Positions 1,054 to 61,325 of a stretch of DNA of 64,000 nucleotides are shown here, piece after piece. Both the position numbers and the translations under genes were made by a program. The stretch covers positions 186,001 to 250,000 of the forward strand of contig NZ_LMHU01000009.1 in NCBI RefSeq assembly GCF_001428505.1. Direction: 5' to 3'. Each line of letters starts with the position of its first letter. Within the stretch, counting starts at the first letter, position 1. Below the pieces are notes generated by a model, which did no database searches, was not told the DNA's origin, and was given only the letters and a program-made list of their open reading frames with translations. The DNA is from Terrabacter sp. Root181. Lineage in GTDB: Bacteria; Actinomycetota; Actinomycetes; Actinomycetales; Dermatophilaceae.

Positions 1054-1157
1054 CGTACGCCGCCCTCCCGAGCTCATACCGGGGTCGTATGCCGTCCCGC
1101 GCGGAACGCGACCACGGCCCGATGTGCGGCCGGTCCCGCCGCGACGAGGGTGGGTCC

Positions 1158-2051
1158 ATGAGCTACTACGACCCGTCCCGTATGCCGGCCGGTGCCCCCG
1201 AGCGCCCGACCTCCCCCTCGCTCGCCCCGCCCGTCCCGTCGCCTGCGCCGGCGGTCTACGCCGGGCGCAGCCCCGGGCGCGACTCCGGCCGCGACCCCGG
1301 CGGCGACCCCGGGAGCGACCTCGTGGCCCGCGGCCTCGTGATGACCTACGGACGCTCGGCCTCCGCGGGTCCGCCGGCGCTGGGCGGTGTCGACCTGACG
1401 ATCCGGGCCGGCGAGAGCCTCGCCGTCATGGGTCCGTCCGGCTCGGGCAAGACGACGTTGCTGCACGTCCTCGCCGGCATCCTGCGACCGACGGGCGGCC
1501 AGGTGCTGTGGCGCGGCCGCGACATCGCACGCATGTCCGACCGCGAGCGGACGGTGCTGCGCCGTGAGGACTTCGGCTTCGTCTTCCAGCAGGGGATGCT
1601 GCTGCCCGAGCTGCCGGCGATCGAGAACGTCGCCCTGCCGCTCATGCTGGGCGGCACGTCCCGCTCGGAGGCCACGGCACGAGCGGCGGCCCTCTTCCCA
1701 CCCCTCGGTCTCTCCGGCCTGGAGAAGCGCCGCCCGGGCGAGCTCTCGGGAGGGCAGGCCCAGCGGGTGGCCATCGCCCGCGCGCTCGTCGCCCGTCCCG
1801 GCGTCGTCTTCGCCGACGAGCCGACCGGTGCGCTCGACCAGACGACGAGCGCCGAGGTGATGCACCACCTGACGCAGCTCGCGACGCACACCGGCGCCTC
1901 CCTCGTCGTCGTGACCCACGACCAGAACGTCGCCCGTTGGTGCCACGGGGTCGTCCGCGTCCGCGACGGTCGCATCGCCGCCGAGGCCGACGCAGCCGAC
2001 GCTGTCGACGCTGTCGACCCGGCCGATCCGGCTGCGGTGGTGGCGCGATGA
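1158..2051 (+). CDS. ABC transporter ATPase, MacB/LolD type
   Basis: ATP-hydrolysing subunit of a MacB/LolD-like ABC system, paired with the permease that follows. It has 297 residues. A Pro/Gly/Asp-rich extension of about 55 residues precedes the ABC domain. Walker A GPSGSGKTT is at about 92-100, the Q-loop FQQ at about 143-145, the signature LSGGQ at about 196-200, Walker B VVFADEPTGALD at about 216-227 and the H-loop VVVTHD at about 250-255. ATG 1158 is chosen because it follows GAGGG by about 7 nt; an in-frame ATG at 1089 lacks a ribosome site and arises inside a GTATGCCG word. The stop overlaps the permease start (ATGA). The exported substrate cannot be read from sequence; an antimicrobial peptide or lipid is the family precedent. 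Confidence 0.85.
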   Translation: MSYYDPSRMPAGAPERPTSPSLAPPVPSPAPAVYAGRSPGRDSGRDPGGDPGSDLVARGLVMTYGRSASAGPPALGGVDLTIRAGESLAVMGPSGSGKTTLLHVLAGILRPTGGQVLWRGRDIARMSDRERTVLRREDFGFVFQQGMLLPELPAIENVALPLMLGGTSRSEATARAAALFPPLGLSGLEKRRPGELSGGQAQRVAIARALVARPGVVFADEPTGALDQTTSAEVMHHLTQLATHTGASLVVVTHDQNVARWCHGVVRVRDGRIAAEADAADAVDAVDPADPAAVVAR

Positions 2052-3379
2052 GGGCTGCGACCGGTCTGTGGTGGCGACTCCGTCGCGCGGGAGCGGCGGA
2101 CAACCGCGTGCCCGGGGTCCTCGCGGTCGTCTCGTTCGCCGTGGCGACGGCGGCCCTGCTCGTCTGCGTCGCGGGGCTCCGGGCCTTCGAGGCGCGCAAC
2201 CCGCTCCCGCCCGGGGGACTCGAGGGCCGTCTGTCCGACGAGGCAGCGCTCGGCAACCTCTACGTGACGCTCGCCTGGATCGCGACGACGTGCATGGTCA
2301 TCCCCATCCTCACTCTCGGCGGCGTCGCCGCGCGCCTCGCCATCGCCCGCCGCGACCAGCGCCTCGCCGCGCTCCGGCTCGCCGGGGCCACGTCCGGACA
2401 GGTCACGCTCATGACGCTCGCCGAGGCCGCGGCCCAGGCCGTCCTCGGCGCGCTGGCCGGCGTCGTCGTCTACCTCGCGGTCCTCCCGCTCGTGGCCCGG
2501 CTGAGCTTCCAGGGCCGGCCGTTCGAGCTGCGCGAACTCGTGCTGCCCCTCGGGCAGACGCTCGCCGTGGTCGCCGCCGTCGTCGTCGTGGCGATCGTGT
2601 CCGGCGCGTCGAGCCTCGCACGGGTCGCGATCAGCCCGCTCGGCGTCGCGGCGCGCACGAGCCCGAAGCGCCTCAGCGTCCTGCGCGTGGTCCTCGCGCT
2701 GGCTGCCGGGGCCGCCTGGATGCTCGTCATCACCCCGATGAAGGAGCCGCAGCGGATGACGATCGTGCTCGTCCTCGGCGCGATGATCCTCGCCGTCAAC
2801 GCCGTCGGCCCGTGGGTCGTCATGGTGGCCGGCCGCGTCGCAGCCCGACTCGCCCCCACCGCCGCGAGCCTGCTCGCAGCGAGGCGCATCGCCGACGACC
2901 CGAAGAGCACGTGGCGCGCCGTGGGCGCCCTCGGCCTCGCCGTCGTCATCGTGGGGTTCACCAGCCTCGCCTCGGTCGACGACCCCACGACGCCGCTCGA
3001 GCGCTACCTCGCCGACGACCTCGGCACGGGCGCGCTCGTCACGCTCGTCATCATCACCATCGTCGGTGCGACGTCGACGGGCGTCGTCCAGGCAGCCCGG
3101 GTCCTCGACCAGCGCGAGCAGTACCGCGCACTGGCCCTCGCCGGCACGAGCGAGCGCTCGCTGCACCGTGCCCGCGCCCTCGAGGTCGCGCTGCCCCTGG
3201 CGATGACGATCGCCCTGTCGGCCGGCTTCGTGCTCGTGCTCATGCTGCCCTTCTCGAGCGCTCTCGACGGGGCCCTCGTCGTGCGGTTCGTCGTGACGTC
3301 GGCCGTCGCCGGGGCGGTCGTCCTGGCCTCCGTGCTGGCATCGCGGTCGCTCGTGCGGACGGCGTCCCGCGTCGCATGA
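2048..3379 (+). CDS. FtsX-like ABC transporter permease
   Basis: Membrane partner of the preceding ATPase, 443 residues. It looks like two FtsX-like halves. Each carries the cytoplasmic coupling segment typical of MacB permeases (QRLAALRLAGATSGQV in the first half, QYRALALAGTSERSL in the second) followed by hydrophobic stretches. I count about ten likely transmembrane segments in total, starting at about residue 21. ATG 2048 overlaps the ATPase stop, so the two are translationally coupled. No signal peptide or large periplasmic domain is evident, which separates it from classical MacB. Substrate unknown. Confidence 0.82.
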   Translation: MRAATGLWWRLRRAGAADNRVPGVLAVVSFAVATAALLVCVAGLRAFEARNPLPPGGLEGRLSDEAALGNLYVTLAWIATTCMVIPILTLGGVAARLAIARRDQRLAALRLAGATSGQVTLMTLAEAAAQAVLGALAGVVVYLAVLPLVARLSFQGRPFELRELVLPLGQTLAVVAAVVVVAIVSGASSLARVAISPLGVAARTSPKRLSVLRVVLALAAGAAWMLVITPMKEPQRMTIVLVLGAMILAVNAVGPWVVMVAGRVAARLAPTAASLLAARRIADDPKSTWRAVGALGLAVVIVGFTSLASVDDPTTPLERYLADDLGTGALVTLVIITIVGATSTGVVQAARVLDQREQYRALALAGTSERSLHRARALEVALPLAMTIALSAGFVLVLMLPFSSALDGALVVRFVVTSAVAGAVVLASVLASRSLVRTASRVA

Positions 3380-3389
3380 ACGGTTCGTC

Positions 3390-3395
3390 TACGGT
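3390..3395 (+). promoter_or_regulatory. Candidate -10 (TACGGT) of a leaderless LCP transcript
   Basis: TACGGT ends 6 nt before the GTG at 3402, and no Shine-Dalgarno sequence lies in between. This spacing recurs at many starts here and fits leaderless transcription. Confidence 0.45.
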
Positions 3396-59700: not shown

Positions 59701-59716
59701 CCGGTGTGTCGGCTCC

Positions 59717-61156
59717 TCAGTTGGCGCCGGTCATCGGGATGCTCTTCGCGGGGGCCTTGGGCACGCAGTCGACGATCGCCTTGGCGACGGTCTTGCTCAT
59801 GTCGGGCTGGAAGACGCTCGGGATGATGTAGTTCGGGTTGAGCTGCTCGTCGGTGACGACGGACGCGATGGCGTCAGCCGCCTTGATGAGCATCTCGGTC
59901 GTGACGTCGGTCGCACGCGCGTCGAGCAGTCCGCGGAACACGCCGGGGAACGCGAGGACGTTGTTGATCTGGTTCGGGTAGTCGCTGCGGCCCGAGGCCA
60001 CGACCGTCGCGCGCTGCGTCGCCTCGTAGATGTCGACCTCGGGGTCGGGGTTGGCGAGCGCGAAGACGATGCGCTGGTCGGCCATCTCGTTGATCCACTC
60101 GGGCGCGAGGATGTGCGGTGCACTGACGCCGATGAAGACGTCGGCGCCCTGGAGGCCGTCGCGCAGGGTGCCGGTGAGGCCGCGGGGGTTGGTCTTCTCG
60201 GCGAGGTCGCGCCACGCCGGTGTCAGCGACTCGTCGTCCCGGTTGAGCAGGCCGGGGCGGTCAGAGACGGTGACGTCGATGGCGCCGGCAGCCAGCAGCA
60301 GCTGGACGATCGCCGAACCGGCTGCACCGCCGCCGGAGACGACGATGCGGGCGTCGGGCAGCTTCTTGTCGATGCAGCGCAGGGCGTTCTTCAGCGCGGC
60401 GAGCACGACGATGGCCGTGCCGTGTTGGTCGTCGTGGAAGACCGGGATCGAGAGGCGCTCGCGCAGCTTGGCCTCGATCTCGAAGCAGCGGGGCGCGGCG
60501 ATGTCCTCGAGGTTGATGCCGCCGAAGCCGGGTGCGATGAGCTCGACGGTGCGCACGATCTCGTCGACGTCGGTGGTGTCGATGCAGATCGGCCACGCGT
60601 CGATGTCGGCGAACCGCTTGAAGAGCGCGGCCTTGCCCTCCATGACGGGCAGCGCCGCCATCGGGCCGATGTTGCCGAGCCCGAGCACCGCCGAGCCGTC
60701 CGTGACGACGGCGACCGAGTTGCCCTTGATCGTCAGCTTCGGGACGTCCTCCGGGTGGTCGGCGAGGGCCTGGCTCACGCGACCGACGCCGGGCGTGTAG
60801 GCCATGGCGAGGTCCTGGCGGTTGCGCAGGTTGACCTTGGACTCGACGGAGATCTTGCCGCCGAGGTGCAGCAGGAAGACACGGTCGGAGACCCGGTGGA
60901 CGTGGACGCCCTCGAGGGTCTCGACGGCCTCCACGACCTCGGTCGAGTGCTCGGCGTTGCTCGCGGAGCAGGTGAGGTCGATGACGAGGCGGTCGGGGTG
61001 CGAGTCGACGATGTCGAGCGCCGTCGTGATGCCGCCGCTCTCGGCGACCTTGACCGCGAGGGCCCCGATGACCGCCGGGTCGGTGCCGGCGTGGATCCGC
61101 ATCGTGATCGAGTAGGAGGCGGTGGTGGCGCGGGCACGTTGGATCGACTCAGTCAC
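59717..61156 (-). CDS. NAD-dependent malic enzyme with N-terminal ACT-like domain
   Basis: Oxidative decarboxylation of malate to pyruvate. About 479 residues from GTG 61156 (ATG 61165 would add three). Residues about 12-90 look like an ACT regulatory domain ([28 protein letters not shown]). The catalytic part has [41 protein letters not shown], the NAD motif [12 protein letters not shown] and [10 protein letters not shown]. An amino acid or other effector is likely to bind the ACT domain. Confidence 0.92.
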
Positions 61157-61245
61157 GCGCCCCATCGTCCCACGACCTGGACGAGGCCCCGGACCTCGTC
61201 CGAAGACCGATCAGTAACCTTTGTCCGCCACCGGCCACCGCGGGC

Positions 61246-61325
61246 GTATGCCGTCCCGCCGCCTCCCGCTCGACGCCACCGAGCGTTCGCCCGCGTTCCG
61301 CCACGGAGGCCAGCACCCGGCATAC
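61246..61325. repeat. Inverted pair of the GTATGCCG word upstream of the P-type ATPase
   Basis: GTATGCCG at 61246-61253 and its complement at 61318-61325 are 64 bp apart in the divergent 181-bp region, nearly the same geometry as 12734/12802. Confidence 0.8.

Follow-up and report, generated by a model that had tools for sequence, protein, structure and literature searches.

A strand-balanced eight-base word that may work like a DNA uptake sequence in an actinobacterial family, with a candidate Tad/Flp competence pilus

Results

A dense, strand-balanced word in a 64-kb stretch of a Terrabacter genome

The stretch of DNA analyzed here, called the window throughout, comprises 64,000 nucleotides of Terrabacter sp. 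Root181 (contig NZ_LMHU01000009.1, positions 186,001 to 250,000), whose family we take to be the Intrasporangiaceae, placed in the Dermatophilaceae in GTDB. The host genome, G000 in our survey, spans 4.94 Mb in 12 contigs and has a G+C content of about 71%. Among named sequences, those nearest to a protein encoded in the window belong to Terrabacter sp. Root85 (87% identity) and Terracoccus sp. 273MFTsu3.1 (86%), which places the window in the Terrabacter/Terracoccus group. The eight-base word GTATGCCG recurs in both the genes and the intergenic gaps of the window, and we argue below that it probably works like a DNA uptake sequence (DUS). A preliminary description of the window had claimed 41 copies, and every one of them was recovered at its coordinate and on its strand (20 plus, 21 minus).

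Copies of GTATGCCG in the window (position, strand, location by called genes; "kept" refers to the word-bearing relatives aligned at the site)
1087..1094, plus, intergenic
1180..1187, plus, coding
3689..3696, plus, coding
6402..6409, minus, coding
8186..8193, plus, intergenic; the sole intergenic copy in the window that is not CGTATGCCGT
9278..9285, minus, across a called gene start, ATG within the word
12734..12741, plus, intergenic
12802..12809, minus, intergenic
13235..13242, minus, coding
13841..13848, plus, coding
15798..15805, minus, intergenic
17094..17101, plus, intergenic
18560..18567, minus, coding
20056..20063, plus, intergenic
20519..20526, minus, coding
23607..23614, minus, intergenic
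24758..24765, plus, coding
29372..29379, plus, coding
29616..29623, minus, coding
31159..31166, minus, across a called gene start, ATG within the word
33632..33639, plus, gene edge; kept in Terrabacter MAHUQ-38
33917..33924, plus, coding; not kept in MAHUQ-38
34384..34391, minus, coding; kept in MAHUQ-38
37030..37037, minus, intergenic; kept in 2/2 aligned relatives
38262..38269, plus, across a called gene start, ATG within the word; kept 3/3, lost in Intrasporangium flavum
39150..39157, plus, coding; kept 3/3, reads GGATGCCG in I. flavum
43743..43750, plus, intergenic; kept 3/3
44948..44955, minus, coding; kept 2/3
46526..46533, minus, coding; kept 3/3, lost in I. flavum
46695..46702, plus, coding; kept 3/3, lost in I. 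flavum
48298..48305, minus, coding; kept 3/3, lost in I. flavum
50949..50956, minus, coding; kept 2/3, lost in I. flavum
51522..51529, minus, coding; kept 3/3, lost in I. flavum
52314..52321, plus, intergenic; kept 1/1
52898..52905, minus, coding; kept 3/3
55444..55451, minus, coding
55676..55683, plus, coding
58158..58165, plus, coding
59166..59173, minus, coding
61246..61253, plus, across a called gene start, ATG within the word
61318..61325, minus, coding

An order-3 Markov model of the window predicted 1.97 copies, in agreement with the earlier estimate of about two, and dinucleotide shuffles of the window contained 0.68 copies on average and reached 41 in 0 of 100 cases. In a 464-kb sample of G000, made up of the window and C1:1-400000, GTATGCCG was found 239 times when the order-3 model predicted 12.2, a 20-fold excess, and the ten-base form CGTATGCCGT 104 times when 0.9 was expected. 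A single 8-mer outranked GTATGCCG in this sample, and it shares seven overlapping bases with it. Genome-wide counting yielded 2,231 copies (1,135 and 1,096 on the two strands), compared with 124 and 126 for the reversed word, which served as control. Consistent with the balance reported for the window, the strands were represented 120:119 in the 464-kb sample and by 100 plus and 98 minus copies in C1:1-400000. Continuation of the word as GTATGCCGT was seen at 27 of the 41 window copies, as had been counted before, and the flanking sequences vary from one copy to another. In being short, highly over-represented, genome-wide and present on both strands, GTATGCCG resembles the DUS and the uptake signal sequences (USS) of other bacteria.

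Placement in genes, gaps and inverted pairs

Genes were called with our own gene caller, which was trained on high-G+C genes and whose starts are unverified. By these calls, 11 window copies are intergenic, 25 are coding and five straddle called gene starts. At four of the five (9278, 31159, 38262 and 61246) the gene was called as starting from the ATG of GTATGCCG, which may thus also serve as start-codon context. Copies outside genes or at a gene edge amount to 27-39% of the total, in keeping with the third claimed earlier; the intergenic share of the window was measured at 8.8% instead of about 7%. The intergenic copies mostly read CGTATGCCGT, as described, although in 10 of 11 cases and not in 12 of 13.

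In the 464-kb sample, 163 copies lie in genes (0.43 per kb), 67 in intergenic DNA (0.83 per kb) and nine at edges. The two outcomes that the preliminary description regarded as fatal to its interest in the word, counts near Markov expectation and ordinary codon use with no intergenic excess, are therefore both contradicted by the sample. Convergent gaps held 16 copies in 10.6 kb and divergent (promoter) gaps 13 in 17.0 kb, and spacing was irregular, with a coefficient of variation of 1.3. The consensus around intergenic copies is approximately CCGATGGC-GTATGCCG-TGTG. One-base variants of CGTATGCCGT, the two outer positions excepted, occurred at most seven times each, compared with 104 for CGTATGCCGT itself. 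Within genes the word imposes rare codons, as had been proposed: its commonest frame (94 of 163) reads xxG TAT GCC, encoding Tyr-Ala, and 94 of the 189 in-frame TAT codons and 9 of the 22 ATA codons of the sample fall inside GTATGCCG, compared with only 45 of 2,100 TAC codons.

We defined an inward pair as GTATGCCG-N4..30-CGGCATAC and totalled pairs over the 31 of 70 genomes that have one. G000 contains 32 inward and 17 outward close pairs, and the 31 genomes together contain 767 inward and 499 outward ones, inward pairs being in excess in 24 of them. Of the four inward pairs found in the 464-kb sample, three follow directly on the ends of convergent genes, and one is inside a gene. These counts and positions match the inverted pairs that DUS and USS form at transcription ends, with a terminator role that is putative here. 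Among the pairs listed for G023 and G029, outward pairs of the form CGGCATAC-N10-GTATGCCG, with a 10-base gap and a variable interior, were frequent. In G023, GTATGCCG was strongly followed by CTGAGC at 15 sampled sites, and many inward pairs were the 30-base palindrome GTATGCCGCTGAGCCGGCTCAGCGGCATAC or close variants of it.

Conservation in relatives and rarity in foreign-looking DNA

Conservation in orthologues, one of the checks suggested for the word, was counted at aligned sites lying entirely within genes or entirely between them, with two edge sites excluded. Three named word-bearing relatives kept GTATGCCG at 10 of 10, 11 of 11 and 8 of 11 sites (29 of 32 in total), compared with a baseline of 36-61% for all 8-mers; since largely the same sites are seen in the three species, the 29 cases are not independent. 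By contrast, I. flavum, which carries one copy of GTATGCCG in 22 kb, kept 0 of 6 coding sites, compared with 37% of all its coding 8-mers. Identity to the window is 85.8% for I. flavum and 86.1% for the third word-bearing relative. These results indicate that GTATGCCG is maintained where it abounds and erodes where it is scarce.

The word was scarce in DNA of foreign appearance. An island of about 26 kb in G000 (C1:314-340 kb), mostly near 60-66% G+C and chosen after its scarcity of the word had been noticed, contains 0 copies, and a 10.3-kb stretch of the same genome with an insert in tadA (described below) contains one. Together these 36 kb hold 1 copy compared with about 19 expected at the local density. 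An 11-kb insert in G015 likewise holds 1 copy, compared with 20 in 24 kb of its flanks. The rarity thus concerns few stretches, one of them picked post hoc. Almost no genes were called in C1:314000-340000 by our caller, with its training on high-G+C genes.

Distribution across genomes and dialects of the word

The survey covered 71 genomes of the family and, from 19 further families of the same order, 46 more (117 in total). Counting in related genera, also suggested beforehand, revealed a bimodal density within the family: 40 of the 71 genomes (hereafter word-rich) have 221-1,125 copies of GTATGCCG per Mb, and 31 (word-poor) have 81 or fewer. The highest count cited is that of G015, with 4,724 copies in 4.2 Mb. 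In the 46 genomes of other families GTATGCCG was at or near background, and among 394 genomes drawn from the class it was high in five of eight genomes of the host family and in those of no other family. The largest excesses noticed outside the family were in G404 (170 copies vs 27 of the reversed word) and G389 (44 vs 6).

We looked for dialects by counting words de novo in samples of 15 to 464 kb and by counting the one-base variant GGATGCCG in the 117 genomes. This variant occurs 3,949 times in G034, which has only 40 copies of GTATGCCG, 3,816 times in G024 and 1,336 times in G009, while G052 is rich in both words (2,195 GGATGCCG and 1,217 GTATGCCG). Because G106 and G090, which belong to another family of the order, contain 4,491 and 1,548 copies of GGATGCCG, the phenomenon is wider than one family. 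The six GGATGCCG-rich genomes have 382 to 1,321 copies per Mb and the remaining ones about 240 or fewer; the background of GGATGCCG is higher, since counts two- to seven-fold above its reversed control are common throughout. Enrichment in G012 extends to GTATGACG and GTATGGCG, and an unrelated word, CGAAGGGG(G), is six- to eight-fold enriched in two related genera (G045, 63 copies vs 8.0 expected; G046, 76 vs 12.4). A one-gene tree that covers 23 of the 71 family genomes groups G034 with G000 as sisters (100/99 support) and requires at least five changes of word state.

A further possible dialect, GTACGCCG in G031, G048 and G032 (5.2-, 4.0- and 2.3-fold), is not claimed, because TAC GCC is favoured codon use. 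In samples of G016, CGCATGCG and ATGCGGGGAT were repeated many times and may form a repeat array.

A second, variable Tad locus

Among possible components of a DNA uptake apparatus, ComEC was found in 66 of 70 genomes and was rejected as a discriminator, since a near-universal protein is uninformative. A type IVa pilus was likewise rejected as the reader of the word, PilM having matches in just 3 of the 71 family genomes, G000 not among them. The first Tad ATPase (TIGR03819) was also uninformative: at E 0.001 all 117 genomes matched, as did 13 of 14 control genomes, and the curated cut-off was passed by 102 of the 117 and, by our own count of the listing, by 63 of the 71 family genomes.

A second Tad locus, which is variable, consists of tadA-tadB-tadC-flp and three small pilin-like genes, and in several genomes it lies beside prfB and ftsE/ftsX; these names are presumptive, being given from resemblance. 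A TadE domain was confirmed in the one pilin tested. We called the second Tad ATPase present when an alignment-based model matched below 1e-90. By this measure 39 of the 40 word-rich family genomes carry it, as do 21 of the 31 word-poor ones (Fisher p 7e-4, a value that ignores kinship); among the 39 word-rich carriers it is partial in four (G025, G037, G041 and G043) and cut in five. Ten of the 11 family genomes that lack it are word-poor, the exception being G055, and the TadB of the locus is missing in all 11 and in G025. We regard the link of word density to the second Tad locus as suggestive.

Interruption of tadA by recombinase-bearing elements

Sixty family genomes have the tadA gene of the second locus, and in six of them it is split (G000, G001, G006, G015, G029 and G036); the pieces in G029 lie on two contigs, and G036 was judged from a 35-kb gap alone. 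The breaks fall at two sites, the Walker A codons (G006, G015 and G036) and a downstream LNSG (G000, G029 and G001, the last assigned by its N-terminal piece). A serine recombinase was encoded at the break in 5 of 5 interrupted genes examined. In G000 the interrupting element measures about 10 kb (G000:C8:349.4-359.4 kb; L259:7404-17449), and in G015 the inserted DNA carries, besides the recombinase, genes for a phage major head protein and a primase. A comparison of the two insert ends for exact repeats revealed only 6-8 base matches, so no attachment core is claimed, and scanning viral contigs with the integrase of G015 brought up no relative.

Elsewhere, competence genes have been described as insertion sites of prophages (PMC4774983). 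In Micrococcus luteus, transformation requires Tad clusters and ComEC, and single deletion of the open reading frames of either tad cluster abolishes it in all cases but one (PMC4322843). Combined with the interruptions of tadA, these reports support, but do not prove, a role of the second Tad locus in competence.

Discussion

A candidate uptake sequence and its rivals

A non-palindromic, strand-balanced word, present in thousands of copies, maintained even where it demands rare codons, apparently scarce in foreign-looking DNA, varying in dialects and arranged in inverted pairs at gene ends, is best read as working like a DNA uptake sequence. From the sequence evidence assembled here we consider this probable for GTATGCCG, while withholding the label itself. 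In such a system a competence pilus would recognise GTATGCCG on free DNA as a self-label, DNA of kin would preferentially be taken up and recombined, and this bias, together with recombination, would spread and repair the word across the resident chromosome at the expense of rare codons, whereas mobile DNA would stay without it. The pilus may be the Tad/Flp pilus of the second locus, with the word predicted to be read by a minor pilin of this pilus or by a different surface protein, and ComEC then importing the DNA. We give about even chances to the broader proposal that this is a third, independent origin of uptake-sequence self-recognition: a system spanning a Gram-positive actinobacterial family and extending to one further family or more, in which GTATGCCG and GGATGCCG are dialects and the reader is a Tad/Flp competence pilus, its motor gene being hit repeatedly by insertions of phage-like elements. 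Among the options listed in the preliminary description, an uptake sequence has gained from the dialects, inverted pairs, foreign-DNA rarity, decay and Tad/Flp link, and a word like the highly iterated palindrome 1 (HIP1) of cyanobacteria has lost, since GTATGCCG is not palindromic.

Other explanations have to be weighed against an uptake sequence. A Chi-like word, which stops a nuclease of the RecBCD, AddAB or AdnAB type, promotes repair and drifts between genera, would also be short, non-palindromic, genome-wide and positionally conserved, and Chi-class words differ between taxa. We nevertheless regard it as unlikely: the strand balance, both genome-wide and in 400 kb, reveals neither the orientation bias of Escherichia coli Chi nor that of FtsK-orienting polar sequences (KOPS), a class already set aside at the outset, and the intergenic preference, the inward pairs at gene ends, the low counts in some genera and the two words in G052 would all be unexpected of it. 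The binding site of a chromosome-organising or regulatory protein, for instance a sequence-specific nucleoid protein, could account for copies that number in the thousands, are balanced between strands and share a consensus reaching into the flanks. This too seems unlikely, given that the word is sparser in divergent than in convergent gaps, that genes hold 163 of the 239 sites, roughly two thirds, and that the spacing is irregular; it would also leave the foreign-DNA rarity and the pairs at gene ends unexplained.

It is rather improbable that the word is HIP1-like, marked by a solitary methyltransferase and maintained by a methylation-dependent process, although its strong maintenance at rare codons would fit. 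Restriction sites are usually avoided and not enriched, GTATGCCG and GGATGCCG differ from their own reverse complements when a palindromic octamer would be expected, and a one-base dialect is found in the sister genus. Genome-wide words tied to methyltransferases do exist, HIP1 among them (PMC4390886). As for an ordinary composition or codon-pair effect, a transposed repeat or an assembly artefact, the counts already contradict this group of explanations and we give it almost no credence. The commonest coding frame does read Tyr-Ala, an unremarkable dipeptide, but the 20-fold excess over the order-3 model, the use of rare TAT instead of TAC, the intergenic enrichment and the differing flanks all argue against it. 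Part of an Illumina adapter looks like GTATGCCG, but a search of the 464 kb for the adapter 16-mer gave 0 matches.

Several observations weigh against an uptake sequence read by the second Tad locus. Some concern the pilus: the window's own genome is among those with an interrupted tadA, G055 is word-rich without TadA or TadB of the second locus, so that the locus is not strictly required, G025 lacks TadB and retains just a fragment of TadA, and ComEC is too common to discriminate. In G034 the locus holds only a fragment of one pilin. Conversely, 21 word-poor family genomes have the second ATPase, so the locus is not sufficient, and no convincing word of their own was found in 40-80 kb of six such carriers (G010, G016, G017, G018, G036 and G066). 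At 1e-60 or better, the ATPase model matches 41 of the 46 genomes of other families, none of them GTATGCCG-rich, and G045 bears the word CGAAGGGG yet lacks the second Tad locus. Only about three changes in the state of the locus are seen on the tree, leaving two to three independent pairs, and the pilus-word association is consequently not significant once kinship counts. As regards the word, 7 of the 31 genomes show no excess of inward over outward pairs. No receptor for it has been identified, no search having been aimed at a ComP-like receptor, and we found nothing experimental on these species in the literature. At the G034 locus itself (L267:1600-7700), the DNA past tadC contains no pilin except the one fragment, and about 14 copies of a 39-base tandem repeat.

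Meaning and comparison with known systems

According to a 2025 paper, only the Neisseriaceae and Pasteurellaceae, both proteobacterial, are known to use uptake words (PMC12616744). Among the matches listed, our literature search, which left most subscription papers outside reach, found no actinobacterial uptake sequence, the one hit that joined such sequences to Actinobacteria being a 2009 review on pathogens, and no paper combining the Intrasporangiaceae with natural transformation; for GTATGCCG and four variants, the titles of the 25 matches listed, of 3,372, point to primers, adapters and barcodes. If confirmed by experiment, this would be the first uptake-sequence system in Gram-positive bacteria. 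Self-labelling of DNA would then have evolved again, with a different pilus, and a second set of dialects would be available for studying the joint change of label and reader. Natural transformation would be predicted in genera for which no paper on it was found, and DNA carrying GTATGCCG might transform these bacteria better.

The closest likeness is to the DUS of the Neisseriaceae, which is also short and non-palindromic, occurs in thousands of genic and intergenic copies, forms terminator-associated inverted pairs and varies in family dialects, with one genome that carries two (PMC3630211). The DUS 12-mer AT-GCCGTCTGAA has ATGCCGT in common with GTATGCCG, probably by chance (PMC3630211). 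Unlike the Neisseriaceae, the host is a Gram-positive actinobacterium of about 71% G+C without PilM, in which the role of the word is putative. The USS of the Pasteurellaceae is likewise a genome-wide self-label, of about nine bases and with two versions described (PMC3630211), but its sequence and lineage are unrelated to GTATGCCG. HIP1 of the cyanobacteria shares with GTATGCCG the character of a highly iterated octamer of unsettled use; however, it is a palindrome, is the same across the cyanobacteria described and is associated with orphan methyltransferases (PMC4390886), whereas GTATGCCG is non-palindromic and has dialects. In M. luteus the phrase "uptake sequence" is absent from the paper on transformation (PMC4322843), and it is for the machinery that this species provides the nearest parallel, its Flp/Tad-dependent transformation involving clusters that may correspond to the second Tad locus.

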